Assembly (NCBI GenBank): GCA_023380795.1
Contig: JAMCSF010000022.1
Location: 1-40,337 of the forward strand
Direction: 5' to 3'
From: Candidatus Martarchaeota archaeon
Lineage (GTDB): Archaea; Micrarchaeota; Micrarchaeia; Micrarchaeales; Micrarchaeaceae
DNA: 40,337 nucleotides
The position numbers were made by a program, and so were the translations under genes. This document shows positions 10,704 to 35,197 of this stretch, one piece after another (position 1 is the first letter of the stretch; every line of letters begins with the position of its first letter). The notes beneath the pieces are model-generated. The model ran no database searches. It saw nothing but the letters and a program-made list of their open reading frames with translations, and was not told the origin of the DNA.

Positions 10704-11297
10704 ATGCGCGGAAAGGAGCCCAAGGACGAGAGCTTCGGTTTCTTCACCTCAAGGCTTTACAGGCTCTTTTCAAACACGTTCCCAAGCATGAAATCATTCT
10801 ACTCTTTCATAATCTCGGATATCGCGAATTATCGGTTCTCCTCGATGCTTGACATAGGCTGCGGCCCCGGAATTCTGGACGCAAAAATTGCGCGCATGTT
10901 TCCCAAAGCCAAAATATGCGGTATAGATCCGTCAAAAGACATGATAAAGCAGGCTTCCGCTCTGGCCAAGCGCGAAGGTATCGGCAATCTGGAATTCGCA
11001 ATAGGGAAAAATACAGAAATACCGTTAGATTTTAAATTTGACCTTGTAATAACTACCCTGTCATTCCACCACTGGGCCGTAAAGCGCGATGCCTTGGAAT
11101 ACATAGCAGGGCATCTTGCCGATGGCGGGAAAATAGCCATATACGAATTCCTCAAGCCTGAGAAAGGAATAGGGATTTCAGGCAGCCATTCGCTTAGCGT
11201 CAGGGAAGCCAACTCATACTCTGAAATTCCAAGGCTCAGGCCCGCAAGCGTCGCAACAGAAAAAGGTTTCATAAAAGTGGTTTTGGAAAAGGCCTAA
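10704..11297 (+). CDS. Class I SAM-dependent methyltransferase
   Basis: Motif I MLDIGCGPGILDAKIA, ICGIDPSKDMI, FDLVITTLSFHHW, GGKIAIYEFL. The ORF opens at 10680 inside cysS; ATG 10704 is 2 nt after the cysS stop codon. Confidence 0.85.
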   Translation: MRGKEPKDESFGFFTSRLYRLFSNTFPSMKSFYSFIISDIANYRFSSMLDIGCGPGILDAKIARMFPKAKICGIDPSKDMIKQASALAKREGIGNLEFAIGKNTEIPLDFKFDLVITTLSFHHWAVKRDALEYIAGHLADGGKIAIYEFLKPEKGIGISGSHSLSVREANSYSEIPRLRPASVATEKGFIKVVLEKA

Positions 11298-13693
11298 GAA
11301 GTGGAATTAGTATAGCTTATCTTGAATATTCTGCTGTCGGAGTTCCTGTAAATGAGTTTCATGCTTACCCCAGTGCCGTTTCCATAATCGCAGCCTGCTT
11401 TATTGCATCCATAAAGGAACTTGAACATGTTGCTCTTAGTAAAGTTTTCTCCCACGAGCGCAGCGCTTGTTATATTATGTCCCAAATAAGTCATGAAGAA
11501 TGTATAGTTTGCAGCTGCTCCGGTAACGTTGTGCTCTATATATGTGTCATTCGCGTAATTGTATAGGACAGTGTGCTTTAAGATCGTGTATCTGCCATTG
11601 CTTCCTATTCCTGTTTCGACATCGCTTGGATTGGAAAGATTCAGGAGCATAACTCCACTTAGCCCGCTGTTTCCCTGGGAGACGAAGAAGAGCCTTTCGA
11701 ATGTGCTGTTGCTCGTCTCGTTAACGCTGCTAAACACGTCATAGCCGTAAGTTGCTGCTATGGTGTTGCTAAGGTTGCCTTCGGTAGCTATGCCACCAAG
11801 CTCCTGCAGCCAATAATATCTTGCCAGTAGGTATTCAGGCCTGTGTGTCTCGTTAATCAGGTAGCGCGTATCTGGAGTCGTATTCAGTATGAATCTAGCG
11901 AAGCCTGCAATGAGTGTTGGGTTCTGGCCTCCGACGCTATCCATGGCACTTGTCCTGTTAGCCCAGCCCTCTATGACGGAGCCGTCTGGCCATACTGCAA
12001 GGAAAGTAGCATTGGTTGGGGTATTGTTCTTTACCCATGTAAGAGCTGAAAGAAAATTTGCGTTTATGCCATCAGCCTGCACTGACGTGAAAGATTCAAG
12101 GTTTGTCAAGTATAACATGTATACCAGTATGAATATTGCCACTGCTGCGAACACTAGCCTTCCGTAAGTCGCAATTCCTTTTTTCGCGTTCTTCAAGACA
12201 TCGTTGTCAAACCCTAATAATCTCCCTATCGCGTAAAGCCCGTACGCTGCAAATATTGCTATTGGCACTGCCACTATGGAATTGAATCTCACAGCATTGA
12301 TTTGTAGGTAAAAAGTTGCCACAAAATAAGCCAGCATTACTAAGAATTCAGGGGAAAAATTTAGCCTGTGCAATACTGTGTACTTCTGCTTAAGATATAT
12401 CCTGTTTGCAAAGAGCAGATACAGGATTATGCCAACTGGGGCAAGGAAGAGCTGGTATGCAAAGCTCGCCCAAAGGAACGCAAACGTCGGGGGTTGCAGC
12501 TCCTGTATAGTTACGTTTAAGTGGCTGCTCGCTATTACGAGCCCGCCGCCGCTCGCTATCTGCGCCAGAAATCCACCGAAAAATACTATTACTACTACCA
12601 GTGCAATAACCACTACTGCCACAATGAACTTTGCCCTGGCCAAAGTGTTCATCGTGAATTTTGGGAATTTTTCCCTGTTTTGTATGAAATAATAGCTCAG
12701 CAACGCCCCCATAACTATTGGCCCGTAGAATATGAAAAAGTGCAGGCTGGACAGTGCCTGCGTCGCCCTTACTATCGTAAGCGCCATCCACATGTGCTGC
12801 ATCGCATACGTAAGCAGAAGCGCAAAAGCGAGCACAAGCGAATCTTTGATGAGCTGCAAGTCTGCCGTTATGTAGCCAAGCACCGTTACGAATATGACTG
12901 CGAGCATATAGACTATTACCGTAAACGGAGCTCCGTTCCATACTGCAGTCCCAACCCCAAGCACGAAAGCCGCTAGCAGTGCGAACATTACCTTCTTTCT
13001 GAAGCTCTTGGCCCTGAATACTGCTATGAAGAATATGAGCGAAAGAATCATAAAAGAGGTTATAAATCCGTCTCCCCTGTATACGAGCGCAGCAGTCCTG
13101 GCAATGTCTCCGCTGGATATTGCCACAAAAAACATCGCAAGGAAGCCAAGCACCCTGCTTTTGGCGAAATACCTCACAATGTAATATGCCCCTATCGCGT
13201 CAAGCACTCCGAAGAGTATCGGCACCAGCCTCATCACAGTATAATAGCTGGCACCGAAGTACCTCAGTATTGCATACGGGAAAAGCGTGACGAAGTATAA
13301 GCCAAGCGGCTCTGAAATCTCGAAATGGGTGGGGAATCCTGAAAGAACCAAAGTCCTGGGTATAGCAAAATCATGCGTGACTGCAGCCCTTATGACAGAA
13401 AAATGGTAAAAGCCGTCTGGCTCAAAGAATCCGGCGTACTTCAGCATGCCGGTCCTTAGGTATATGTCGAGAATTATTATGATTATGAAAAGCGCTATTG
13501 CCGCATAGCCGTATTTGCTTATGGGGAGCATTGCCCTCGTGCCTTTGCTTTTGCTTGCATCGTGCCCTGCATCGGCGCCTGCGCTGGTTTCGGTGCTAAC
13601 CTTCGGTACGCTCTCTTCATGCTTCTCCGCAATCCCTACTTCTGCTTCCTGTCCAGAATCCATAAACAGACCAAACCTGCTAGCGAGAATCAA
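11294..13693 (-). CDS. aglB: STT3/AglB-family oligosaccharyltransferase (archaeal N-glycosylation)
   Basis: 799 aa, many TM segments, FFEPDGFYHFSVIRAAV first-loop acidic motif, ...ISEPLGLYFVTLFPY..., and a C-terminal WWDYG-equivalent AVWPDGSVIEGWANRTSAMDS. Alternative ATG at 13663. Confidence 0.85.
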   Translation of the reverse strand: MILASRFGLFMDSGQEAEVGIAEKHEESVPKVSTETSAGADAGHDASKSKGTRAMLPISKYGYAAIALFIIIIILDIYLRTGMLKYAGFFEPDGFYHFSVIRAAVTHDFAIPRTLVLSGFPTHFEISEPLGLYFVTLFPYAILRYFGASYYTVMRLVPILFGVLDAIGAYYIVRYFAKSRVLGFLAMFFVAISSGDIARTAALVYRGDGFITSFMILSLIFFIAVFRAKSFRKKVMFALLAAFVLGVGTAVWNGAPFTVIVYMLAVIFVTVLGYITADLQLIKDSLVLAFALLLTYAMQHMWMALTIVRATQALSSLHFFIFYGPIVMGALLSYYFIQNREKFPKFTMNTLARAKFIVAVVVIALVVVIVFFGGFLAQIASGGGLVIASSHLNVTIQELQPPTFAFLWASFAYQLFLAPVGIILYLLFANRIYLKQKYTVLHRLNFSPEFLVMLAYFVATFYLQINAVRFNSIVAVPIAIFAAYGLYAIGRLLGFDNDVLKNAKKGIATYGRLVFAAVAIFILVYMLYLTNLESFTSVQADGINANFLSALTWVKNNTPTNATFLAVWPDGSVIEGWANRTSAMDSVGGQNPTLIAGFARFILNTTPDTRYLINETHRPEYLLARYYWLQELGGIATEGNLSNTIAATYGYDVFSSVNETSNSTFERLFFVSQGNSGLSGVMLLNLSNPSDVETGIGSNGRYTILKHTVLYNYANDTYIEHNVTGAAANYTFFMTYLGHNITSAALVGENFTKSNMFKFLYGCNKAGCDYGNGTGVSMKLIYRNSDSRIFKISYTNSTS

Positions 13694-13798
13694 GTCAATA
13701 AAGCCTTTTTGTTATAAACTTTTTTAATGGTTATCCTATCATGCGAAGGCTCCGCCATAAAATCCACGGTAACCATAATGGCAAAGGGAATAAAAATA

Positions 13799-13817
13799 CT
13801 ACTAAATATATTAGTAG
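13799..13817. promoter_or_regulatory. Perfect 7-bp inverted repeat CTACTAA-ATATA-TTAGTAG overlapping an AT-rich promoter region
   Basis: Read directly: CTACTAA (13799-13805), ATATA spacer, TTAGTAG (13811-13817), about 43 bp before the likely ATG at 13861. Confidence 0.55.
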
Positions 13818-13860
13818 ATATATTATATGGAAACGCTGCTCGACCAAGCCTGGAGATATC

Positions 13861-15882
13861 ATGAATATCAAAAAATACAAAGCGATGGCCTTTGTTGCGC
13901 TTTTCGCGTTTATAATACTTGCATCCTATCCCTCATACTCTAACGCAAATACTGTAAGAGTAAATGCCTCAATAAACGCGGTGTGTCAGTTCGCCCTGTA
14001 CAATACCCATTCAGTTGTATATCCGTTGCTTTCAAACATTTCAGTAAGCTTCGCCTCCCAAGATCTTGCAAACTGCTCAATATCTAGCATGCCAGGCACC
14101 ATGGAAGTTTTTTACCCTAACGGCACCAAGGCATTAAATTTCAGCGCAGATTTCTATAATTTTACCAATTCCCAAACAGAGTATCATTTTCCTGCTTCTT
14201 TCAACAGTCTCAAGCAGGGCAATTACACAGCAAACATAACTCTCGAAGAGACTGCAACTTATAAAAATTCGACTACAATATCGCTGATACTTCTCAATCC
14301 TCCTAACGTTATAGCCAGCAACATGACAGTGGGCAATGTAAGCTATGGCTCTCAGCTTCCGGTTTCCTTAAGGCTACACAACAATGGCTCTTTGGCATCC
14401 AATACTGTCACGCTCTACATAAGGATAAACGGCACCGCTTCATTCAACAGAAGCTATGTTTTGAGCCCACTCGCCCCGAACCAGACTTTCCCGATAATAT
14501 TATCCCTAAGCAACGTCACTAATGTTCCGGGTCCATACAAAATATATGCATATGCTGGCTTCAGCTCATACGGCAGGGCATTCCTGTCCAATATCGTCAA
14601 AGCCAACTACACTGTCCCTTCTCCTCCGTCCACTTCAAAAATACCCTCGAACAGGACTACTACACCGATAGTAAAACCTCCATATGTGTATATAACAACA
14701 ATTCCGATATATTCTTCAATACCTTATGGCACGTCAGCAGTCTCATCGCTTGGGCTAAAGGACATAATAGCACAGCCAGAAACGATCACTCTAAGCATAA
14801 ACAGCACCTACTCAAACTTGATGAGTGTTTCGGCAACGTCGCTTTCGCTCAAGCCCAACCAGACTGAGCTCGTGCAGGTATATGCCAACGGAAAGACAAA
14901 TAAGCCCGGAAGCTACATAGTGCCAATAGGGATAAATGCCACCCTGGCCAACGGCACTTCGTCGTTGCAGACAGAATACGTGTCATTCACCGTCTACAAC
15001 AAGACCAACTCTACTGCTTCGATAAATTACAACGTCGCGCTGCAAAACGACACCACATCAGCACTGGGAACGGTCACCGTTTCCGGATCCGCCAATGCAA
15101 GCCTGAAGAACACAACCCTGCTCACCATAATACCTGAGGCCGAGGTCTCATCTGCCAACGACATAAACGCATACGGGCTGCCCAACAGGCTCGAAGTAGT
15201 CAACAACTCCTATTACATAATATGGAATATAAGCAGCATACCTGCATCAAAGCAGGTAATAGTATACTACTCGATAACGAATCCCAAAAGTCAGTCCCTT
15301 CTCAGCGACATACAAAACATACTGTATTCCCCGTCTGCAATATCTTTCCTTAAGCTTTTCAGGATAACTAGCCTGTCACTGCCAACGCTTTTCACCAACT
15401 CGCTTGGATTCATCAATGTCTCGGCAATATACACTGGGATGCTCCCTAGCACGGTTTCGCTTTATGTGGTAAGCTCTCCTGGCCTCAAGGTCACAAACGC
15501 CTCATATAGTCAGGGCATGGTTCCAAATCAGCAGATTTTCCACTCTTTCAAGATAGCTTCAGGGCCGGTTCCCGGGACGTATCTGCTGTACATGTACGCT
15601 TCTGCTGCAGGCATAAATTACAACTACACGCTGCCGCTGCTGGTTGAAAAGCTGACCCCTTCAACTACTGTGCTTACCACAGTGCCACCTACTCCAGTGC
15701 CTCAAAGAAGCTTATACGCCTACGCTGCTTATGCTGCCATAGCTATAACGCTGATAGCGGTTGTCACGTACGCTACATATAAATATAAAAACAAGCCTAA
15801 ATACAATCCGAAAGTGGCCAAGGAACTTGTCGAAATTACCAAAAACGAGCGTTCAAAGAAGGGCAGAGGTGCGTCGAAATGA
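13861..15882 (+). CDS. Secreted, membrane-anchored surface protein with CARDB/Ig-like beta domains
   Basis: ORF opens at 13741, but ATG 13861 begins a signal peptide (MNIKKYKAMAFVALFAFIILASYPSYSNA). N-x-S/T rich; C-terminal TM SLYAYAAYAAIAITLIAVVTYATYKY with a basic cytoplasmic tail. Confidence 0.8.
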   Translation: MNIKKYKAMAFVALFAFIILASYPSYSNANTVRVNASINAVCQFALYNTHSVVYPLLSNISVSFASQDLANCSISSMPGTMEVFYPNGTKALNFSADFYNFTNSQTEYHFPASFNSLKQGNYTANITLEETATYKNSTTISLILLNPPNVIASNMTVGNVSYGSQLPVSLRLHNNGSLASNTVTLYIRINGTASFNRSYVLSPLAPNQTFPIILSLSNVTNVPGPYKIYAYAGFSSYGRAFLSNIVKANYTVPSPPSTSKIPSNRTTTPIVKPPYVYITTIPIYSSIPYGTSAVSSLGLKDIIAQPETITLSINSTYSNLMSVSATSLSLKPNQTELVQVYANGKTNKPGSYIVPIGINATLANGTSSLQTEYVSFTVYNKTNSTASINYNVALQNDTTSALGTVTVSGSANASLKNTTLLTIIPEAEVSSANDINAYGLPNRLEVVNNSYYIIWNISSIPASKQVIVYYSITNPKSQSLLSDIQNILYSPSAISFLKLFRITSLSLPTLFTNSLGFINVSAIYTGMLPSTVSLYVVSSPGLKVTNASYSQGMVPNQQIFHSFKIASGPVPGTYLLYMYASAAGINYNYTLPLLVEKLTPSTTVLTTVPPTPVPQRSLYAYAAYAAIAITLIAVVTYATYKYKNKPKYNPKVAKELVEITKNERSKKGRGASK

Positions 15883-16625
15883 CCAAAACATCAAGCATAA
15901 TGGTGGCTTCCATAAAAGGCGGGGTAGGGAAGACCACTGTGGCTGTCAATCTCGCTGTGGCGCTCAGCATAGCAGGGTACAAAACCCTGCTCTATGAAAT
16001 GGATACCGTAAATCCTGGCGTGAGCTACCATCTGGGCAAGCTTGACGACGAATCCAGTGTCCAGGTGTACAAACCTACTGGCCTGCAATACTCCCCTGCG
16101 CGAGTGTCCGAATCTTATGGTGCTACCGAGCAGGAGCGGGCTTCACAGCTTGAATCGGAAATTAAAAGCGGCAATTATGATTTCGTTGTCATAGACACAC
16201 AATCGGCTGACAAGTCCCTGCTAAAGAGGCACTTTGACATGGGCTTAATAATAATAAATCCGGACGAGCAGTCATGCGCTGCAGGCATAATGGCTAAAGA
16301 CCTGCTGGAATCGTCTGGAGCCAAATGCAACATAATGCTGAACAGGGGGTTCGAAAAGCCTTATGCGCTGAGCGACAGGGAGATAGAAGAGATGTTCGGC
16401 ACCCCAATAATGGCCAAGGCCGAAGAGGACCTTTCGCTTCGCAAGAGCCTTCTGGAACACGTTCCCAACATAATAACTGAGAACGCTCCAAAGTTCAACT
16501 CCCAGATAAGCAATCTGGCAAGAGTATACGCTGCGATGATCGACGAAGATTATGCGCAAAAATTCGAAAATTTCGGCAAGGAACTCAACAGGGCAAAATC
16601 CGAAATCAAAAAATTGCAGCGATAA
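15879..16625 (+). CDS. MinD/ParA-family ATPase (deviant Walker A)
   Basis: 248 aa. MVASIKGGVGKTTVAVNLAVALSIAGYKTLLYEMD; DFVVIDTQSADKS; CNIMLNRGF; ATGA overlap with the upstream gene. Confidence 0.88.
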   Translation: MTKTSSIMVASIKGGVGKTTVAVNLAVALSIAGYKTLLYEMDTVNPGVSYHLGKLDDESSVQVYKPTGLQYSPARVSESYGATEQERASQLESEIKSGNYDFVVIDTQSADKSLLKRHFDMGLIIINPDEQSCAAGIMAKDLLESSGAKCNIMLNRGFEKPYALSDREIEEMFGTPIMAKAEEDLSLRKSLLEHVPNIITENAPKFNSQISNLARVYAAMIDEDYAQKFENFGKELNRAKSEIKKLQR

Positions 16626-16638
16626 ATCACATGGTCAA

Positions 16639-19600
16639 ATGAGGGACAAAACAGCTAATGCATCCACAACCTCTGCAAAGATGCAGCTAAGGCAGCAAAG
16701 TGCCATGGAATTCATACTCACATACGGCTGGGCCATACTGCTCATTGCCATAGTGCTGGGCGCGATGTATGCCGTCGGCCTTTTTAGGCCCAGCATACCT
16801 ACGACGTGCCTTCCTGATTCTGGATACCTGTGCGAATCCCCTATAATGAATACCAGCGGCTACGTTGCCGTCAAGTTCGGAACTGTCAACCAGCAAAACA
16901 TAATCATAACTGGCCTGGGGTGCTCGAACGGGGACGTTGTGCCTTCAAACATAAGCCTAACCAATACGCCTGTTTCTTCTGGCCAGGTAAAGGCTCTGGT
17001 CTTCAAGTGCCCGGTACACTCACATTCAATAAATTCCCATTTTACCGGAACCCTGTGGCTCCAGTACACTGCTGACGGCATACCTGGCCAGCTGGGTGAA
17101 ATCGGGACTCTCAGCGCCTCGGAGAGCACTCCGGACATAGTCGCAACCGCCTTTGTAAGTTCAAATTCCACATCAACGAGCACAAGCACAACTTCAACTT
17201 CTACATCCACAACCACAACCTCAACTTCAACGACTTCAACTTCCACAACTTCAACTTCTACTACTACTTCTACCTCTACAATTCCGTACGTGCCAATAAT
17301 ACTTAAAAATTCCCAGTCATCAAACACCCCTGCGCCGTTCCAGCAGATGGTCGTAGTCAACAGCACAAAATATTCGAGCTATATCTATCCTGGATGGTCT
17401 AATGTCGAATTCACTACTGGTCCAGCAGCTACGGGCAATACCATAAGCGCATGGATAGAAAGCAATGCCACAAACTCTTCCAAAAGTACTGTGGTGTGGC
17501 TCAAGCTGCCATCCGGAATAAGCGCAAACAGCCCTAGCTTGCTATATATGGATTTCATGCCGGCCAACGTGCTCTCATCCAACGGTCCTACTGGCGAAGC
17601 CCCTCAGCTCTCGCCCACTTACGCAGAATATGACGACGGCGCCAATGTGTTCAACAGCTACTGGAACTTCGCAGGGACGAGTCTGCCGAGCGGTTGGACA
17701 TCCGGCGGCTCAGTAACGGTGGATAATGGCATAAGTGTTGCATATAGCGGATATGCACAAACTGCTGCGGATTTCGGCTTAAATACGAGCCAAATATTTG
17801 ACGCTTACGGAGATCTTTCGGCTGCAACCTCCGGAAATAATGCCGGAGTTGGTTATGCGGCTTCGAACTCGTTCCCAATTGCTTCTGGCAATGGGGGAAT
17901 TATCTGGAACTTAAACAATAATGCAGAATCAACAAGCAATGCGTGGCTTATTACTTGGACCGGGAGCGCCTGGGCAGGCGAAACATCATTAACGGCTACT
18001 GGATATAACGTTTGGTCAATCTATTGGGCTTCTCCTTCATCTGCTTCTGGTTATGTTGATTATTCCTCATCTTACACAAGCACTACAGACATACCTTCGG
18101 TCAATCTTCCGATAGGCTTCTTCAACCTCCAGGGTTCCCAGTCAACAATAGGTCCTTTCTACTGGGCTCGCATGCGCGCATATCCTCCGAATGGCATTAT
18201 GCCATCCGTTACTTTCTGGAATCAGGACGGTGCACCATCATTGAAAATAGAAAAGAATACGACAGTTTATGCATCATCAAACGATATAATAAATGCAACC
18301 GCACTATTTTCAAACGCAAGCATCGAGCTTCTCAGGAACGGCAGCGTAATAGCTTCAGGCACCGGCAGTGTTTCATATACCATAAACTCGAATTCAAGCT
18401 CCATATGGGCTGCAGGCAAATATAAAATAACCGCTTATGAGCCAAATGCACTGGTAGCTAACAATACCGAAAATCTTACCGTAACAAAAGCATCTCCAGC
18501 AATAAACATAAGCACCAGCAATGCAAAATTCAGCATGGGCGCCATCAGCAATTACAGCATCACATACTCGGTAAATTCAATAAACAACCAGCTCAAGGCA
18601 TACCTGTCAGTAAATGGCGCCAATGTATCTTCGACGAATTCCGTGGCTACCTACACGATGAACATATCCAATACCACGACGTTCTACGCGTTCACCAACG
18701 GCAACGCAAACTATACCTCTTTAGCCATAAACAAAACAAGCGTGTATGTGGTAAGATATCCCTACTATGTACCTATAACGATATATAACAACCAGTCAAG
18801 CAATACTCCTGCGCCGTTCCAGCAGCTAATAAACATAAACGTGTCCAAATACGCTGATTATGTCAACGCCAACATGAGCAACATATTCTTCTTTTACGGG
18901 AACAAGACGATAGTGCCTTCATGGCGGGAAAGCGGCGCAACGGGTGCAACCTTCAATGGCAATCCGGCTTATCTGACTCAGGAAAAAGGATACACGTGGA
19001 TGAACAATGCTGCCCAGCACTTTACAATGTCCATTTGGGTTAATCCATCGTCTCCAAACGGGGTAATATTGGACGAACTGAACCAGAGCGCTTCGTGGCA
19101 CGACGCATGGCTGGACCTGGTGAATGGCAATGTATATATGAAGATATGGAATCTAGCCTGCGTGAATTTAGGCGCCATACCTGACAATCAGTGGAGCAAC
19201 ATAGTGATGGAATACAACGGCTCTACATACTCTGGATACATAAACGGCAACTTTGCAGGTTCAAGTACTGGCACACGTTCAGTTCTTGGGGGCTCGTATG
19301 CTTTTTCTTATGCCTTGGGCAAGAACGATACGACAAACTGCGGCTCAGGATCGGCCTTTGACGGGTCAATGCTTAACTATCAGATATACAACACTACGCT
19401 GCAGCCAAGCGGCATAGCCAGCATATACTCAAGCGGCAGGTATGGTATACCTCCGTTCAATGCTTCGGAAGGCCTCAGCGGTTGGTGGCAGCTTAAGTTC
19501 AATTCTACTGCAGGAGAAAGCAATGACAACCTCACATACAGCAACGTCAATTTCACTAGCATGCACTCCAGTTATTGGCTGAAGATAAACGGCGGCATTC

Positions 19601-22600
19601 CAGCGACGAGCTCCATAACCCTATACATGGGCTTTGCGAACAAGAGCGATTCTCTCCTCAATAAACTGACGACCGGCGAAGCCCCACAACTAAGTTCTAC
19701 TTATGCCCAATACGACGACGGTGCGGATGTGTTCAACAACTACTGGAACTTCGCAGGGACGAGTCTGCCTAGCGGATGGACATATGTATCCCAAGGAGGT
19801 TCATCGTATTCTGTAAATAATGGCATAACATTTAACACTGTAAATAACAATCCGAGTGGAGGTATTTATTCTTCAGTGTCTATATCCTCTCCAATAGTAA
19901 TAGATGCACTACAAAATATAGGAACAACCGCTGCAGAGCAAACAATTGGTCCAGAATTAAATAATTATGCGATAGCTTTTGGAAATGAGGGAGGTAGCGG
20001 TCCTGAGAGGGGTATCGGAACAGTAAGTTCTTCCACACCCGGACTAATAACTGGCTGGCTAGTTCAAACAACAACAAATCCCCCAACTGCAAATACTAAT
20101 TATATAAATACACTCTATTATGTTTCCGGAAGTTTAAATTATTCAGTAAATTACAAAAGCGTTTTGACAGCAACAAGCACAATATCTGGAAGTGAACCTC
20201 TCGCGATTTGGACTTATGCACCAGCAACAGGGACTGTATTTACACAATGGCTCCGCACACGTGCATATCCACCAAACGGCGTTATGCCTTCGTATAATAT
20301 CGGCTCGGTATACGCGCCTGGGGCGCCGGAGCTTACAATAAACAAATCCACCATACCATACGGCCAATCGGATGAGATAACTGCATCATCGCAGATAAGC
20401 GGCGACCAAGTTGAGCTTTCGATAAACGGCAATGTGGTTTCTGGACCAACGTCAAACACAATAAATTATGAGTTCCCTGTAACTATTCCAGGAATTTATG
20501 CAGTGAATGCCATAAATATCAACAATTCCAAGTTCACATCCGCACAAATACAGGTAATCAAAGCAGTTCCTGAGCTATACGCTCCAAAAAGCGGATTTTA
20601 CTCGAATCCGCTGAATTTCACATATTCAATATCTACTGTAGACAACCAGCTTACCGGAAAGTTATACCTTAACGGAACCGAAATATCCTCTACGGATTCT
20701 TCGAACTCAATTGTGCTTTCTGGTGTCGGTTCGACGTATTCGCTGCTGTTCAATACTTCAGGCGACGGGAACTACACCAATGCCTCAACAGGAACAATAG
20801 AAGTGCGTCTTGAAAAAGCTAGCAGCCCTTACAGGATACCTGCTGGCATTTACCACTACTCTCCTATTTACGTATACAATAACCAATCTGTCCCTACAAT
20901 TCCGCATCCGCAGGAATACATACAGATAAACGCGAGTGCATTTTCAAGCTATCTCACATACAACTACAGCAGCGCCAACCTTGAGTTTTTTACATCAAAC
21001 GGCACGATAATACCTGCTTGGATAGCAAGCAATTCTTCAGGGCGCATAACCATATGGTTAAAACTTCCGGAAAGCATTCCCCCGAAATCTAACATGACGC
21101 TGTATATGGGCTTTGCAAATAATACTGCAAATCTTTTATCAAATTCAGGGACAAGCGGTATAGGCGAAGCCCCGCAGCTCTCGCCCACTTACGCGGAATA
21201 CGACGACGGGGCTGGTGTCTTCCAAGCGTATTTCAACGCTGACACTCCTCTCTCAGATTTCATCATTCAAGGGGGCTATGGGGTAACCAAAGTATCTACA
21301 TATTGCACAACAGCGGCAAACTGCAGGTCCAAAACTGTCTATTACTTAGAAGTCACTGGCTCAGGAACAAGGTCGTTCGACATGGCTTACAACACTGCTT
21401 TTCCTGACAATGCAACATTGGCTCTTGGCTCAAACATAGGCACGAATCTTACCAACGAAGGCTTCGTCGGCCTCGGCGCAGCATCTGTCTCTTCGACTCC
21501 TGGGGTTGAAAATGCTGCTGGCAACGGCAACTCCATAGGGATCACGTGGCTGCAGAACGGAAATTTCGGCTATTCTCCTAGCGCGTCGTCAAATCTGCCT
21601 CCGAATTACGCTTATTACGAGATGAGCTACGTTCCTGGAGCCCCTAACGTAGTTGCCTCAATATATGAACAGAACGCATCAGTTAGCGAAACCAACTACA
21701 TACCTTCAGGATATGGCCCTGGGCTTTACATAGGGGTCGGAAGTGCAACGGAAAACATACAAGAGCTTGCCTATACTAGCTGGCAAGCCGCTGCCCAGTC
21801 CACAAGCACAGGGATATTTCCTACGGCTATAGTGATGCAGAACCCAAAACCATCAGGGTCCGCAGCGCTTTTCATCAACGGCAAGAGCCAAAACACTACG
21901 CTTAACTATTCTGTAATAAACATAACCGCGTCGCTACAATCAAGCGCATATTCTAACGATACGGTAAATCTTCTGCTGGATGGAAATACGCTGTGCACCG
22001 GAACGTTCTCATGCACATACGAGGGATACATAGCGGCATCTGCTACTGCATACAATGTGACTGCGGAGAACGTCCAAACTTCGTCAAGGCAAACCCTGAG
22101 CCTTAAGGTGGAAAAGAAAGTGCCTGACATAACAGAAACAGTTCCATATTATGGCGTCAACAACGGCACAGCATACTACTCTGTAAACACTGTAAACTCG
22201 CAGGTAAAGGCTTACCTGTATGCCAACGGAGTGGAAGTCTCCAATACGATTAGCGAATCAAGCTACACGGTAAACAGCATAGGCAATTACAGCTTTTACG
22301 CATATACTCCTGGCGACGAGAACTACACCAACTTCACAACTGCCACAAAAACGCTTCATATAATCCGCTCTCCCAAGTTTTATATCCCATTGCTTATAAC
22401 AAACAACCAGACAAGCAATACCCCTGCGCCGTTCCAGCAGGAGCTCACATTCAACAGCCTGGCATACAGGTATGCCGAAGCAGGGGACCTTGACAACATC
22501 ATGTTCTTCTATGCGAACGGCACAGCGATACCGTCTTGGCTTGAAGCAGGGAACACAAACACGAGCGCCAGCACGATATACTGGCTAAACATAAGCCATG

Positions 22601-25600
22601 GCATCCCAGCAAAGAGCTCGATAAAAATATACATGGGCATATTCGCGCAGAACATGAGCCTATTCAACAATTTATCGACGGGTGAAGCCCCTCAGCTGTC
22701 CACCCCATTCGGCAAATACAACGATATCGCTTACGTGATGAACAAAGGGCTATTATACCAGATATGGGGGTGGGGCGGCTCTGGCATACAGCCGCAGTAC
22801 GAATTATACCAGTCTAACATGACCCCAGGTTCTAGCTTTACTTTCGGATCCACTGCGGCAACTGCTTCTTCGACTTTGTATAACACAAACTTTACTGGCA
22901 TAACTGAAGATGTTGATGGTTCGCAGGAGCCATATGTGGTGATAAACTACCAAAACGGCTATTCCGGAGGGGTGCCGCCTCCGGATCCGCCAGTATCAAA
23001 CGACAATTTCTGGCTTCTCAAGGCAATAGGCTTCGTAAATTACACTTCTGGAGTGTCGCTCTACGGCATAGCGGACGATGCAATTGGCCTAGGGTACAGC
23101 CAATCCACAACTGGCAGCATAGGGTCATGGATCGGAGGGACAAACAATCCCAACAACACGATAAGCGCATGGAAGGGCGAAGGCGCAACAGTTTATTCTG
23201 GCACAATATCCAGCAGCGGGGATTATCCCATAGAGCTTGATTTCGAGAACCAGAACGGCCCAGGCTACGTGGGGATGTGGTCGAATTCTCCTCTTGAATA
23301 TTATTCCGCAGCATATCCTCCAAACGGGATTATGCCAAGCTCCAATGTCGAAGCCATAAACGGGCCGCCGGCGTTGAACATAACGGCCAACACTATAGCG
23401 TATTCGAATACGACTGATTATATATACGCTACCGCCCGCCCGTCAAACAACACCGTGGAAATACTCATAAACGGCAACGTGGTCGATACCGGCACCGGCA
23501 CCCTCAACTACACGCTTCCTGTACTGCCTGCAGGCATATACAGCATAGAGGCTTATGACGTAAACAAGAGCCTTTCGACCAACGGCACCGTAACAATAGT
23601 AAAGGCGGTGCCCAAAATAACGCAGACTAGCGGAGGCACATACTCAAACAATTATACTATCGGCTTTGCCTCAAACACTGTAAAAGACCAGCTAACTCTC
23701 AACCTTTATGTGGACAACGCCATAGTTGCATCCACGAATTCGGTTTCAGACTATCCTATAAACAATGTTGGCAACTACACGTTCTTCGCCGGAACTGCCG
23801 GCAATGCGAACTACACGGCGAGGAATCTTACTTTGCAGCAGCTCCATGTTATACCAAAACAGGTCCCATCGGTGGTTCCTAACGACATTGCTTACTATGT
23901 ACCGATAGTCATAGCTAACAATCAGCCAGTAGCTACGCCGGCGCCATTCCAGGAGATGCTAACGGTAGACAGTGCGCTGTATTCGCAATATGAGAATGGC
24001 TCGCTGGAAAACGTCAAATTCTTCTATTCAAACGGCACAACTGTCCCTTCATGGCTTTATTCGGGCAATTCCAACCGCAGCACATCTTCTGTATACTGGG
24101 TGAAGCTTTCCAACGGGATAGCTGCGGATTCTTATCAGACCATATTCATGGGATTCAGCACCATGGAAGCCGTAATAATGAACAACAGGACCACCGGCGA
24201 AGCACCCCAGCTAAGCAAGGTATATGGCCAGTACGACGACATAGCCGGAGTAATGAATCCTGGTTTGCTTTATGAAGTTTACTACAACGGCGCAATTACC
24301 GGGTGCGTTCCAAACGATACATATGCGTATGCTGCAGGGGTGTACAGTGGCTACTCCATAAACGGCTCATGCAGCCCGATAGCATCAAGCACGCTTCCGT
24401 CGCTCACGCCTCTTACCGGAACGTCACAGGCAGTTGACGGTTCCGGAGAAAACAACGTGCTGATAAACGTTGAGGGCGGCTATACCAGCGGCGCGCCATT
24501 CCCTAACCCGCCTGTTTCGGATTACTCACAGATAATAGTAACCAAGAGCATAGGGTTTGTGGATTCAAGGCATCCAATAAATTTCTATGTCCTAATAGAC
24601 GACGCAGGGCAGCTCGGGTACTCGAATTACACGCTTAACGGCTCGGAGGAGAACTGGCTCGGCAGCTATTCCAATTCCTACAATATAATCAACGAATGGC
24701 GCGCCGAGGGTGCAACTCAATACGAAGGGATAGTCACTGGCACCGGGGCATACCGCATACAATACGACTATGCCAACCAGGGAGGCCCAGGATATTGGAG
24801 CCTGTGGTCAAACTCAAGCGTTAGCTACTACAGCCCCTCTGCACAGCCCAACGGGGTAATGCCTGCTTACACTACCGGGCAGCTCGGCTACGGGATGAAC
24901 AGGCTCATAATAGCCAACGATCCTGCCCAATACCATGTCAAGAGCGGAGTCATAGCCGTGGGGCTAAACCTTACCAATTCCTTAGACATATACGTCAACG
25001 GCTCTCTTGTCAAAAGCGGCACTGGCATTGTCAACTACACCGAGGACAACCTCCCTCTGGGAAATTTCAGCGTCAAGAGCGTTAATCTGGCCACTAGCAA
25101 CACGATAACAGCGAACCTGCGCATAATACCAAACGACCCGTTCCTGATAATACAGTTCCCGCAGTCGCTCTACGGAGACCAGGACAACATAACCGGAATA
25201 TCAAATGTCACAGGCGACAGGATAGAGCTGCGCCTGGAGGACGGGGTCATATTGGCAGCAGCATCCAACACTGTTGTTTACGGTGGCAATACGCTAAAGC
25301 CGGGCAAGTACAACATAACCGCAATAGACCTAAATCAGCCTGCATATTCGCAAACGAAAAGCCTTATCATACTGCCCCCGAACGTGACTCTTAGCATACA
25401 GCACCAAACGGCGCTATATAATACCAATGACATTATTAACGCAACTACTTCGCAGACGCTAGACCATGTGACAATAGCGATAAACGGCACCGTCGTAGCC
25501 AATTCCACGGCAAAGGCCTCATATACCGAAAACTCGCTTCCTCTGGGGGTTTACCCAGTGCAGGCGTGCGACGCGGATTCGCTCACGTGCACAAATATAG

Positions 25601-28600
25601 AAAACCTCACTATAGCTCCAAACGACCCGCACATATCAATACAGAACAGGCTTGCAGAATTCGGCGAGAACGATACAATAACTGCTACGTCAAACGTTAC
25701 TGGAGACAATGTCAGCATAATCATAAACGGCAATGTCGTAGCTTCCGGCAAAGGCACAGCGCAGTTCAATACTGCATCGCTAGTGCCTGGCACATACAAC
25801 GCCACAGCAGAGGATACCGTGCAGCCGGCCTATTCGCAGCCCTTGCAATTCGAAGTGACTGGCCAGGTGGTTTCCCCTGCGGGAATACTAAGCTACGTCC
25901 CCATACTGATAACCAACAACCAGAGCACAGCAACAAAAGCGCCATTCCAGCAAATGATAGAGGTAAACGCGCAGAGCTACGCTTCGTATGAATCTGGGGG
26001 CATGCAAAATGTAGAATTCTCCTATGCAAATGGGACTATAATACCATCGTGGTTCGAAGGCAGCCTGGCAAACGAATCCAAAACAACATCCCTCAATGAG
26101 TCCGCAAGCGATGTTTATTGGCTGAAGATAGCAAATGGCATACCTGCAAAGAGCTCTATAACAGTATACATGGATTTCGCGGAAGTTGGCAAGAACCTGC
26201 TTAATCTAAATTCTACCGGCGAAGCCCCGCAGCTGTCTTCAACCTACGCCGAATACGACGACGGCGCAAATATATTCAACAGCTACTGGAACTTTAATGG
26301 GACATCGATGCCTAGCGGATTCACCGAATACTCGAACGGCGGTTCCACGAGCGTTGACAACGGCATTAACATTGATCTTGCAAGCAGCGGAGATTATCTT
26401 TCATTCGTCTACGATACTGCAATAAACTCAAACGACACGATAGTCGAAACCTACGATTCAGGCACAAGGGGCAACGGCCCGACAGACCTTGGGATATACC
26501 AGTCAAACAGCGACAGCGTCGGCGGCTATGCAGGGGTGGCAGACACGTGGGGATGGGGATACGGCACCATAAGCAGCGGCTACGGCAACATAGGCAGGCC
26601 TTTCGATATTTCCGACGGCAACGGGGTGGCAAGCATATACTGGATAGGCAGCGGCAACGAGGGCGTGGGATGGAACTACGATTTCGTTTCAAGCACAAAC
26701 ACCAACGAGGCGTTCCAGAACAGCGCGTATATGGCAATAGGGATAGGCTATGCGGCTCCAGGCTCTGACATCAATTACTACTGGCTTCGCACAAGGTACT
26801 ATCCGCCCGACGGCGTAATGCCGTCGGTTGACTTTGGGGCCGAAAGGTCTACGACTGGGGCTTACCTAAATATCCAGCACAACCCTTCGCTTTACAGGAC
26901 AAACGACACGTTAACCGCAATAGCCTCGAATGCCACTTATATAATAGAAATACTAAAGGATGGCACCCTTATTTCAAGGGGTACCGGCAGCACTTCATAT
27001 ACCGAAAATGATTTCTCCATAGGCACTTACAACATTACCGCGGACAACCTCAACACTGGCAATACAACAACGCTGAAACTTTCAGTGATACCTAACCCTC
27101 CAAGGCTGAGCATATCAAAGGCAAAGCTTCTATTCGGCCAGGAGGATACAATAAGCGCTTATTCCAACGTCACAGGCGACAAGATTGCGATAGAGATATC
27201 AAATTCAATAGTCTCTGAAGGGGTTAACAACGCCACATATGCCGAAACCAACCTGAGCATAGGCAATCACACTGTAGTGGCCGAAGACTTAAACTCCAGC
27301 AACTTGGCCCAGTCTGCTCCGCAGCTCATAACGGTCCTCAAGAACCCGCCAAAGCTCGAGATAGAATTTGCAAATTCGCCTTACGGCAAGGATGACAATA
27401 TTACTGCGATATCAAACGTCACGGGCAACAGGGTGCAGATACTTGTCAACAACGCCATAGTTGCCAACGCAACCGGCATAGCCACTTACAACGCCAATGC
27501 CCTTACTGTCGGCACATACAACATAACCGCAAGGGACATAAGCCCCAACGACACCTCCCAGGTGTCGAACGCCCTTACCATAACGCCTCCGAACATAGAG
27601 CTATATTTCACATCCAATCCTGGCTTCTACGGCAACAGGGACGAAATTGCTGCCGAAGCCTCGATAAGCATAGACAACGTAACGCTTAGCATAAACGGCA
27701 ACGTTGTGGCAAGCGGCGTGGGCAAGGCCAACTTAACCGAATCAAATTTCAGCTTGGGCAACTACACTGTCCAGGGCTGCGACACTACTGCAAAGTTCTG
27801 CACAGCCAACACTATCCTAGAAGTGGAGCCGAATCCTCCCCTATTGACAATCCAGCACAACCCTATGCTGTATGATGTTGACAACAACATAACTGCGAAG
27901 GCAAACAACACCGGCTCGGCTATAAAGCTCCTCATAAACGGCACAGTTGTGGAGAACGGGACAAACGAGGTCTTTTACAATGCAAAATCCCTCGCGCTCG
28001 GCACTTACAACATAACAGCAGAAAGCCAGAGCGACAATGCGCTTGCAGTAACCACCGAAAGGCTGGCAGTCAACAAGAACCTGCCAATACTCTCGATACA
28101 GAACCGCACCCCTCCGTACGGGAACACAAACCTCATATCTGTGCTGGCAAATGTCACCGGCTACCCTGTAGAGCTCCTGATAAACGGCACAGAAGTGGCG
28201 CAAGGGATAGGCAACATAACTTACGATGCCGATGCGCTTAAGCCTGGCAACTACACCGTGATAGCGGCAGACACGAACTCGTCCAACCCCTCAACGGTAA
28301 ATTCGACGATAAAGGTACTTGCCCCGAAGGTTTCTATAACTCCTGTGAAGGGGTCTCCAGAATACGGCATCAACTTCACTCTGGAGGCAAACACTACGCA
28401 GAAACTAGACACTGTCAACATGTCGATAAGCAACACCCTGATAGGCAGCTCAGTGTCGCACTTCTACTATACTGAAGACAATCTGAGCATAGGATCATAC
28501 AACGTTACTGCCTGCGACGTCAACGCAGGCGTATGTGCGAAGTACTTGCTCACAATATCAAAGAACTATCCATCGCTGAAGCTCACCCAAAATCCGTCTC

Positions 28601-32167: not shown

Positions 32168-32250
32168 AAACGTATAAAACGAATTTTAAATAAGTCCAAA
32201 GCTTTAAATACTTTTCATAAAATGGTATTCACAAACAAACGTGTAAAACG
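32168..32250 (+). promoter_or_regulatory. S-layer gene promoter region with two box-A-like elements flanked by a 14-bp direct repeat
   Basis: TTTTAAATA at 32184-32192 and TTTAAATA at 32203-32210; AAACGTATAAAACG (32168-32181) and AAACGTGTAAAACG (32237-32250) differ at one base. Confidence 0.55.
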
Positions 32251-35197
32251 TTTAAGTGATAGAATGAAAAGTCTAAACCCAAAGAGGATAGCAGCTGTCG
32301 TAGGAGGCGCAGCTTTGTTAGCGACAGGCCTTGCGTTCGCAGGACCGATCTCCTTCCAGAACGTACCTATAATAAGCAATAGCGGGCAACCACTAGTGCA
32401 GATAGTCGTAGGAACATTGGCAAAACCATCGGACGGAGTAGCAGCGGCAAACATTGCAGCAGCGATAGGAAACCTTGCATACACGAGCGTACCGGTAACC
32501 GCAAGCGTCAACACGACGCAGGCAGCGAAGGGACGCTCTGGTTGTTGGTTATCAAGCGCAAAGTACTCGCTCACGAACCAGCAGGTCTACTTCAACGAGA
32601 GCACAACTGCCTACATAAGCGGAACCTATTCGTTCAGCGCATTGATTGGCTCAGTGTTCAACAGGGGAGTAAAGACTAACCAGTACGGAGCAACTAAGAC
32701 GCTTCAGAGCTCATCGCAGTACACATACCCAGAAGAAGATGTGATATCTCCAAGTGGGGTATCAATGCCAAGCCCATTCACTACATATGGCAGCGTACCA
32801 TTTGAGTACTCTGTGACTGCAAGCACAAGCGGCGGTGGAGTTTCATTCTCATCATTTTCAGTGGGGACGAACGACAACATACTTAGGGTAACATCATCCC
32901 AGCTTCCAGCATTGGCAAGCAACATGGGCGCTAACCTAGAAAGCGAGTACCTGTGGCTTACAGGCATGCCAGTATTTGACCAGGGAAGCAACAACAACAT
33001 AAATCAGTTCAACCTGACAAACGTTGGCGGTGCATACCAGGCAGTATTCGGCAACCCGATAGAATTCAGGAGCTCATCCAATGGTGTAAATAACGCACAG
33101 CTACAGCTATTCGGCCAGAACTGGACTATAATAAACTACATGCTTCCGGGCACCAGTGCGTACAACAGCACAAGCGGCGTAAAAACAACAACGTCATTGG
33201 ATACAGTGTCAGGAGGAGGCCTAAGCCTTGCTTCATCGCTTGAGCCAGAAAAGACTGTTTACGTAGGCCAGAACTACTCAACAGGTGGAGCTGAAAACTT
33301 CACAGTACAAGTGGCAGACATTGGACAGCCTAACAGCAACGGCATAAGCCCTGCTGCATTGAAAGTATACCTGAACGGCGCACTCTACAACGTTTCAGCA
33401 GTAAATCCAGGCACAACTGCAAAGTTCAACGACTCTGGGCACAACCTTTACGTAAAGGTATACCAGACATTTGCAGGACTGTACGCATATGAAAAGTATG
33501 CAAAGATACAGCTGTACTCCAACGTTGTAAACGTAACGAGCGGAAACGAGTTCAACAGCACATATGACAAGGGCTGGAACATCGATCTGCTTTGGACAAA
33601 CACATCAAGCACAACTTCAGCAGGCAACGCAATAGCACTGCAGAGCATAGTAGTGTTCAACACAACCCCAACATACCTGACACCAGGACAGAGCTTTGGC
33701 TTCATAGGAAATCCAAAAGCATACAAACTAACATTCGAGCAGCCAAGCTTTGGAAGCGGAACATACACACCAGTAACACTATCAACGAGCGAGTCCAACG
33801 TCAAGTACATAAACCCAGGGAGCTTTGGTGAGAACATAACAGAGCCAGTGCAGATGCTCACAGTATCGGCACCATCCTCATTGAGCAACGCTTTCACAGT
33901 TGGCGGAGTTCCATCGAGCAGCGTAACATACGACTTGATACCTCTGTCATTCAGTAGCACCGCTTCGACATCAAACGCACTGACAGTAACTGGCGCGCTA
34001 TCTGCAGCTACAGATTTCGAAAACCAGATAAGCTCAACGCATCCGCTGACTATTAAGTTCCAGGGACTTACAACCTCAAACACACTGGTTACAGCTACGA
34101 ACACACTGACGAGCTATTCCGAACCGTTTACCCCAACATTCCCGCAGTCCATAACAGAAATAACAAACATAACGGTAAGCTACGTACTTCCGGAGATGAC
34201 GGTATCAGGCACGTTCGGCACAGGAGGCAGTGCAGCGCTGTCATATTCGGCAACCCCTGACGAGATGTACTTAAGGTCTGGACAGTCCAACTACAACCTA
34301 ATAACCATATCAGGCAACCAGGTTCAGTTCAACCAGAACAACGGGCAGAGGCCGAACTTCGACATGAACGCAGAGGCAAATTTCAATCCGGTTGGCCACT
34401 CCTACGAGCTGTTCAACTACTCCATGTCGGAATACCCAGTACCTGCAAATCAGACATCGACAGACAGCTTCACAGTGGGACTAGTAAACTCAAGCAGCGC
34501 AAACCCAACAAGCCCGTTCATCCTGAACTACTCTGCACCGATATCCGGTTCGATAGCACATGACAATGTTACATACACTACAAACACGCAGGGTTCAACT
34601 GTAAGTCTGAACGCCGCACAGGGCTTCTATTCCGAGAAGGGAAGCGAAGTGGCTTCGATATCGCCAGGCTCAGTGACAATCAACTTCGCAAGGGGAGTTG
34701 ACATGCTGAACTTCGTGGTAAGCCCGTACAACATAACTGCAGTGTCGAAAAACTACAAGACAGTTGGCCCAGTAGGCATAGGACAGCCAGTGCCGAACGT
34801 CCCGAACGTGACTGTAGAAAGCGTAACAGCTAACATATCGGTCAGCAACGCAAGTGGTGCAACAGTGACTGGAATAAGCAACCTGACGGCCATACCATCA
34901 GTATCGAGCGCAACGACTCCGGTCTTGCTGAAGAACCTGACAACATCGCCTTTGGCAGTGTTGAACAGCACAGCAAACCCGAGCAGCAACCTGATATTGA
35001 TAGGAAGCGGATTCGTCAACGGACTGAGCGCACAGTTGCAGGCATCGAACAACATAACGTTCACGCCAACAAGCGCACCTGTATTGCAGGCGTTCGGATC
35101 AAACAGGATCCTGATAGCCGGATACTCAGCCAACCAGACAACTGCGGAAGCAAACAAGTTCATACAGGACCTGTACGCATCGGCGAGCACGAGCTAA
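32222..35197 (+). CDS. S-layer protein
   Basis: 991 aa. Signal peptide region MKSLNPKRIAAVVGGAALLATGLAFAG; N-terminal VQIVVGTLAKPSDGVAAANIAAAIGNLAY and C-terminal SNRILIAGYSANQTTAEANKFIQDL resemble methanococcal S-layer N and C domains. Alternative ATG at 32264 preceded by GTGAT. Confidence 0.86.
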   Translation: MVFTNKRVKRLSDRMKSLNPKRIAAVVGGAALLATGLAFAGPISFQNVPIISNSGQPLVQIVVGTLAKPSDGVAAANIAAAIGNLAYTSVPVTASVNTTQAAKGRSGCWLSSAKYSLTNQQVYFNESTTAYISGTYSFSALIGSVFNRGVKTNQYGATKTLQSSSQYTYPEEDVISPSGVSMPSPFTTYGSVPFEYSVTASTSGGGVSFSSFSVGTNDNILRVTSSQLPALASNMGANLESEYLWLTGMPVFDQGSNNNINQFNLTNVGGAYQAVFGNPIEFRSSSNGVNNAQLQLFGQNWTIINYMLPGTSAYNSTSGVKTTTSLDTVSGGGLSLASSLEPEKTVYVGQNYSTGGAENFTVQVADIGQPNSNGISPAALKVYLNGALYNVSAVNPGTTAKFNDSGHNLYVKVYQTFAGLYAYEKYAKIQLYSNVVNVTSGNEFNSTYDKGWNIDLLWTNTSSTTSAGNAIALQSIVVFNTTPTYLTPGQSFGFIGNPKAYKLTFEQPSFGSGTYTPVTLSTSESNVKYINPGSFGENITEPVQMLTVSAPSSLSNAFTVGGVPSSSVTYDLIPLSFSSTASTSNALTVTGALSAATDFENQISSTHPLTIKFQGLTTSNTLVTATNTLTSYSEPFTPTFPQSITEITNITVSYVLPEMTVSGTFGTGGSAALSYSATPDEMYLRSGQSNYNLITISGNQVQFNQNNGQRPNFDMNAEANFNPVGHSYELFNYSMSEYPVPANQTSTDSFTVGLVNSSSANPTSPFILNYSAPISGSIAHDNVTYTTNTQGSTVSLNAAQGFYSEKGSEVASISPGSVTINFARGVDMLNFVVSPYNITAVSKNYKTVGPVGIGQPVPNVPNVTVESVTANISVSNASGATVTGISNLTAIPSVSSATTPVLLKNLTTSPLAVLNSTANPSSNLILIGSGFVNGLSAQLQASNNITFTPTSAPVLQAFGSNRILIAGYSANQTTAEANKFIQDLYASASTS

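Follow-up and report, generated by a model that had tools for sequence, protein, structure and literature searches.

Beside a canonical AglB, a whole archaeal order of the Micrarchaeota keeps an STT3-fold paralogue in which WPDGS, just as fixed, takes the place of the WWDYG motif. WWDYG has been described as strictly conserved in N-oligosaccharyltransferases (OSTs) and as the reason for the +2 Ser/Thr (PMC3527161, PMC8342417, PMC3703281). The paralogue is probably, at a moderate level of confidence, a second and anciently diverged OST of the STT3/AglB family, specific to the order, tied to an S-layer/surface-protein locus, and provided with a rebuilt +2 pocket next to the canonical enzyme. If active as an OST, it would contradict the published rule that the Ser/Thr pocket is of a single type among the OST paralogues of an organism (PMC3703281), and it would represent a natural experiment on pocket rebuilding.

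The window (i.e., the whole stretch of DNA that was analysed, 40,337 nucleotides) is contig C22 of the genome (658 kb, 72% complete) of a tiny, acidophilic micrarchaeote, whose nearest named relative, Ca. Micrarchaeum sp. A_DKE, encodes an STT3 paralogue that is ~86% identical. The protein has an N-terminal membrane domain and a C-terminal extracellular domain, its open reading frame translation includes NATFLAVWPDGSVIEGWANRTSAMDSVGGQ, and Pfam PF02516 matches the 799-aa product with an E-value of 8.8e-10. The gene and its motif are laid out as follows:

11294..13693, minus strand: STT3-family (GT-C) paralogue of the "WPDG clade", 799 aa counted from the first TTG (start as called)
11978..11995, minus strand: V567-W-P-D-G-S572, positional equivalent of W-W-D-Y-G-Y/H/D in ungapped profile alignments
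11993-11995, minus strand: V567 codon
11990-11992, minus strand: W568 codon
11987-11989, minus strand: P569 codon
11984-11986, minus strand: D570 codon
11981-11983, minus strand: G571 codon

The earlier note had placed a V-W-P-D-G segment of an STT3 homologue at 11981-11995 on the minus strand; all five codons agree exactly with that placement, and the PF02516 match confirms the homology. A family profile aligned with human STT3A pairs a 25-residue stretch with NTPANATVLALWPDGSVVEGWANRT without gaps, and over a wider stretch NTPANATVLALWPDGSVVEGWANRTSVMDS is paired with 30 residues, gapless through the motif region. Profile–profile alignment to the canonical AglB of Micrarchaeota gives the same WWDYG register. 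Position by position, the first Trp is replaced by Val, Leu, or Ile, the second Trp is kept, Asp is replaced by Pro, Tyr is replaced by Asp, and Gly is kept. The earlier wording of the change as Trp-to-Pro and Tyr-to-Gly is wrong, since the ungapped profile alignments give Trp-to-Val, Trp retained, Asp-to-Pro, Tyr-to-Asp, and Gly retained for the window protein. A canonical WWDYG elsewhere in the protein, which the earlier note had allowed for, is not present: pattern searches return neither WWDYG nor W-x-DYG in the rest of the 799 residues, and all reading frames of the window lack W[WFY]D[YFWH]G.

WPDGS occurs in 30 of the 32 aligned orthologues, the remaining two carrying WIDGS and WTEGS, while W568, G571, and S572 are invariant among 25 divergent sequences with identities down to 32%. 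The dN/dS ratio against four orthologues, approximate in that synonymous sites are close to saturation, is 0.07–0.09 (about 0.08), which indicates strong purifying selection and rules out a pseudogene. The motif codons themselves show synonymous differences between close relatives, with the amino acids unchanged. Fixation of the motif in 32 orthologues, with codons that change synonymously, rules out sequencing error and chance. For the same reason "degenerate", the term first applied to the motif, does not fit; being fixed throughout an order while its codons change synonymously, WPDGS is a signature of its clade.

The AlphaFold model of the paralogue has a pLDDT of 81.7 (87–93 in the motif region) and a pTM of 0.77. 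Its 19 best PDB matches are all STT3, AglB, or PglB structures with TM scores of about 0.6, followed at lower scores by DPY19, ArnT, and PMT; normalized to the query, the model reaches up to 0.66 for STT3/AglB versus 0.51 for DPY19, 0.38 for ArnT, and 0.35 for PMT. By its modelled fold and most of its motifs, the paralogue is a member of the STT3 superfamily. It is not filed as an ordinary AglB because WWDYG is missing and, less certainly, because of its second DXD motif. The remaining active-site motifs are the following:

13415..13423, minus strand: first DXD motif, E91-P92-D93; D93 is aligned with the metal-binding Asp and invariant, and the motif pairs with E-F-D of canonical AglB
13070..13081, minus strand: Y205-R206-G207-D208 at the second DXD motif, invariant, pairing with Y-D-N-E of human STT3A
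12500..12511, minus strand: TIXE motif T395-I-Q-E398 of external loop 5; E398 is invariant, and the motif pairs with TVxE/SVSE
12287..12289, minus strand: R469, equivalent of the phosphate-site Arg, invariant and aligned to human STT3A and canonical AglB
11801..11821, minus strand: R625-YYWLQ-E631 at the expected DK site; R625 is invariant, the register less certain

In AglB, the metal ligands are the Asp of the first DXD motif and two side chains of the second; TIXE aligns with the sequon backbone, and WWDYG together with DK or MI makes up the Ser/Thr pocket (PMC8342417). The second DXD motif of the paralogue has Arg at the first acidic position and Asp at the third, in a pairing of columns that is less certain than at WPDG. 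Because only the third position of R206-G-D208 is acidic, the first metal ligand of this motif appears to be lost, in an uncertain register. Neither a DxxKxxx(M/I) nor a MxxIxxx(V/I/M) pattern is found for the DK/MI motif in the paralogue, where an insertion-bearing variant would be hard to see without a structure; DK variants with an insertion are difficult to recognise in this way (PMC3703281). Set against the roles of the AglB motifs, this inventory suggests that the parts serving the acceptor backbone and the chemistry are mostly kept and that the +2 pocket is replaced.

The paralogue would most likely transfer a lipid-linked glycan to Asn of surface proteins. Together with a metal ion, the Asp of the first DXD motif and the TIXE Glu would activate the acceptor Asn, the backbone of the acceptor would be held by the TIXE strand, and R469, which is conserved, would hold the lipid phosphate. 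The +2 pocket would be rebuilt on Trp568-Pro-Asp570-Gly-Ser572, replacing Trp-Trp-Asp plus the DK or MI residue, and the enzyme may still take N-x-T/S or be more permissive. The Arg at the first acid of the second DXD motif and the unrecognisable DK/MI motif speak against this reading. Activity of the paralogue cannot be assumed, since single changes in the WWDYG motif of Campylobacter jejuni PglB (Y460N, G461D) abolish its activity (PMC3527161).

A GT-C glycosyltransferase that has departed from N-glycosylation, placing sugar on Ser/Thr, Trp, or a glycolipid in the manner of PMT, DPY19, and ArnT, might also be expected to lack WWDYG and the first acid of the second DXD motif. DPY19 and ArnT are indeed the next fold matches; however, STT3 structures match clearly better than either, and the paralogue retains TIXE, the motif of STT3 for the acceptor backbone, which makes such an enzyme quite improbable. 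The Arg at a metal-ligand position, the lost pocket, and the near-constant presence of a canonical AglB beside the paralogue would likewise suit an STT3-like protein that lacks catalysis and serves as a partner to canonical AglB or in S-layer assembly, binding lipid-linked glycan or sequons and transferring no sugar. This is very unlikely, as invariance of the Asp of the first DXD motif, the TIXE Glu, and the phosphate-site Arg is what an active enzyme would be expected to show.

The role of WWDYG-type AglB in the genome is filled not by the window protein but by a copy on another contig (G000:C24:23066-26461; L131:1513-4971). This protein of 1152 aa contains WWDYG, EFD, and a D...K element, and its motif region reads VLAWWDYGDWINWFG. 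It was found, in the search for a second AglB that the earlier note had proposed, with a profile made from other Micrarchaeota AglBs. PF02516 detects only the window protein as STT3 in the source genome and does not recognise the canonical AglB, on which PF21436 and PF22627 score below their cut-offs; annotation pipelines are likely to miss the canonical AglB and to name the paralogue as the sole STT3. An organism with WPDG alone, at first believed because PF02516 finds a single STT3, is ruled out by the canonical copy recovered with the phylum-AglB profile. The complete A_DKE genome encodes one WWDYG and one WPDGS protein, and WWDYG is kept in 10 of 10 further canonical copies from the order. 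Of separate note, the second DXD region of the order's canonical AglBs (e.g., L131 and L117) reads GEQLxEPW, so that their first metal-ligand position may be non-acidic too.

A WPDG profile matches 65 of 85 genomes of the window's family and 66 of 79 of its sister family (131 of 164 for the order), while beyond the order, among 137 other Micrarchaeota genomes, it returns only three marginal matches (E 6e-6 to 9e-6). Canonical AglB is present in 78 of 85 and 77 of 79 genomes of the two families, respectively, and both paralogues in 125 genomes; the genomes are drafts, and gene absences in either count are not firm. Nearly all proteins examined from other Micrarchaeota families have SWWDYGHW-type motifs. 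In a maximum-likelihood tree (quick search, midpoint root), the 32 WPDG proteins form one group (SH-aLRT 100), and the canonical AglBs of the order form a separate group (100) amid the AglBs of other families. Since the two groups are separate, a recent duplication of the local AglB is not supported. WPDGS defines a monophyletic lineage of STT3 paralogues, one that most likely diverged anciently. The "divergent clade" suggested earlier therefore holds in a stronger form than proposed, with a support of 100 for the WPDGS lineage.

Other divergent forms were encountered along the way. A further STT3-like paralogue (L050:10569-12344, minus strand) has both a WPDG gene and an S-layer gene in its vicinity; it has SSEADGTAIQYWGDRKT at the motif position, where the Trp is gone as well and the D-G-S/T core alone is left, and it has no Pfam match. 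A PF02516-matching protein of family f15 (L115:1162-2922, plus strand, genome G093) has neither WWDYG nor WPDG (SIWSFRISPMAEFMTGRK) and represents another divergent STT3-like lineage. Short AglB-like proteins of the same family (L002, L003, L006) have WWDYS replacing WWDYG.

The paralogue is linked to genes for surface proteins, of which the window contains the following:

32222..35197, plus strand: S-layer protein, likely partner or substrate (PF05124, E 7.1e-17), linked to the paralogue across the order and bearing conserved N-x-S/T sequons
13741..15882, plus strand: adjacent, divergently transcribed exported protein of 713 aa with a weak CARDB match and a very high content of N-x-T (20 forward versus 2 reverse), found near the paralogue in the distant locus L046
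35393..37519, plus strand: membrane/exported protein whose gene comes after that for the S-layer in relatives, with synteny in L037-L039 and L042
37529..38122, plus strand: small membrane-anchored protein belonging to this S-layer cluster, syntenic in L037, L039, and L042

The S-layer and STT3 genes are about 18.5 kb apart in the window and are neighbours, usually divergent, in relatives. Among the matches listed, they share a contig in 61 of the 83 order genomes that have both, at a distance of ≤5 kb in 42 of these 61 (36 divergent) and ≤20 kb in 55. For canonical AglB, the matches listed comprise 49 genomes that also have the S-layer gene, with the two on one contig in 5 and within 20 kb in none of the 49. 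Most other families, which lack the paralogue, have PF05124 S-layers as well; the paralogue is therefore an order-specific addition rather than an S-layer requirement. In distant members (L044, L050), it adjoins genes for UDP-galactopyranose mutase (GLF), GT2, RGP-like, and epimerase proteins. The S-layer linkage points to a specific candidate substrate in an organism that is in culture, Ca. Micrarchaeum harzensis A_DKE. Gfrerer et al. (AEM 2022) reportedly found the S-layer of A_DKE to be apparently glycosylated.

The window also encodes a giant surface protein of 5103 aa (16552-31863, plus strand) with a class-III-signal-like hydrophobic segment at the N-terminus (QQSAMEFILTYGWAILLIAIV), Thr/Ser-rich linkers, and a strong N-x-T excess (131 forward vs 61 reverse). 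Both here (13741-31863, plus strand) and in a distantly related genome (L046:12425-18292), the WPDG STT3 gene has near it a block of a surface protein, a MinD/ParA-like ATPase, and a large surface protein, which suggests a conserved surface-protein module.

Sequons are enriched in exported proteins, as counted with simple heuristics for gene calling and export prediction. The 88 exported proteins of A_DKE (37.7 kaa) have 721 N-x-T versus 314 reversed T-x-N and 557 N-x-S versus 384 reversed, while its cytosolic proteins show no excess (308/337 for Thr and 519/522 for Ser, forward/reversed). The forward/reverse ratios are 2.32 (Thr) and 1.57 (Ser) in a second paralogue-bearing genome, compared with 1.76/1.43 and 2.77/1.41 (Thr/Ser) in canonical-only genomes. 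In the exported proteins of the two paralogue-bearing genomes, enrichment at the +2 position after Asn is confined to Thr and Ser. A sequon altered proteome-wide is rejected, because Thr and Ser are the only +2 preferences and are comparable whether or not a genome has the paralogue. A clade-specific preference of Thr over Ser, hinted at by the S-layer proteins, is also rejected, as such a preference is stronger across the proteome of the canonical-only genome G090. All of these sequons could be glycosylated by canonical AglB on its own, and canonical-only genomes have the same kind of enrichment as well as PF05124 S-layers; both points weigh against the favoured reading of the paralogue as a second OST.

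The altered sequon recognition that the earlier note had inferred from the motif accordingly finds no support in the proteome, where the paralogue makes no consistent difference; it may still apply to this single enzyme, whose Trp-Trp-Asp pocket has lost two of its three residues. A functional OST with a truly different acceptor rule, in which the need for +2 Ser/Thr is removed or changed by the loss of the first Trp, the Asp, and the DK/MI residue and a few non-sequon Asn of the S-layer or other surface proteins are modified, is rather unlikely. The two replaced pocket residues, the fixation of the new motif, and the S-layer linkage are consistent with it. In six S-layer orthologues, roughly a dozen N-x-S/T sites are conserved, with Ser and Thr replacing one another (e.g., N351, N390, N403, N756, and N769), and several Asn outside sequons are conserved in 6/6 of them (e.g., N77, N147, N219, and N978). 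However, these Asn may simply be structural, and in both paralogue-bearing genomes the exported proteins show a +2 enrichment of Thr/Ser alone. The specific case of an OST without the WWDYG pocket that glycosylates S-layer Asn by a rule other than N-x-S/T, alongside canonical AglB, is unlikely.

Among known systems, Archaeoglobus fulgidus AglB-Long (PDB 5GMY, 7E9S) and archaeal AglB share with the paralogue the fold, the Asp of the first DXD motif, TIXE, the Arg, and a C-terminal domain with the motif at the same position. In contrast to them, the paralogue has VWPDG for WWDYG, no recognisable DK, and Arg at the first acid of the second DXD motif, and it coexists with a canonical AglB and is linked to an S-layer gene. 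The canonical Micrarchaeota AglB (AWWDYGDW in the 1152-aa copy) belongs to the same superfamily and the same organism; yet the two families are only about 13% identical over 527 aligned columns and fall into separate clades, and the canonical form has WWDYG and the D...K element and no S-layer-gene linkage. Among solved structures, eukaryotic STT3A/STT3B are the best sequence match (E 1.8e-11), with the motif flanks NTPxxAxV..W..G....ANRT common to both, but they have WWDYG, SVSE, and DK where the paralogue has WPDGS, TIQE, and no recognisable DK. The AglB-Short paralogues (A. fulgidus AglB-S1/S2 and the short forms of Micrarchaeota family f15) are likewise paralogous OSTs within one organism; they retain WWDY(G/S), whereas the WPDG clade does not.
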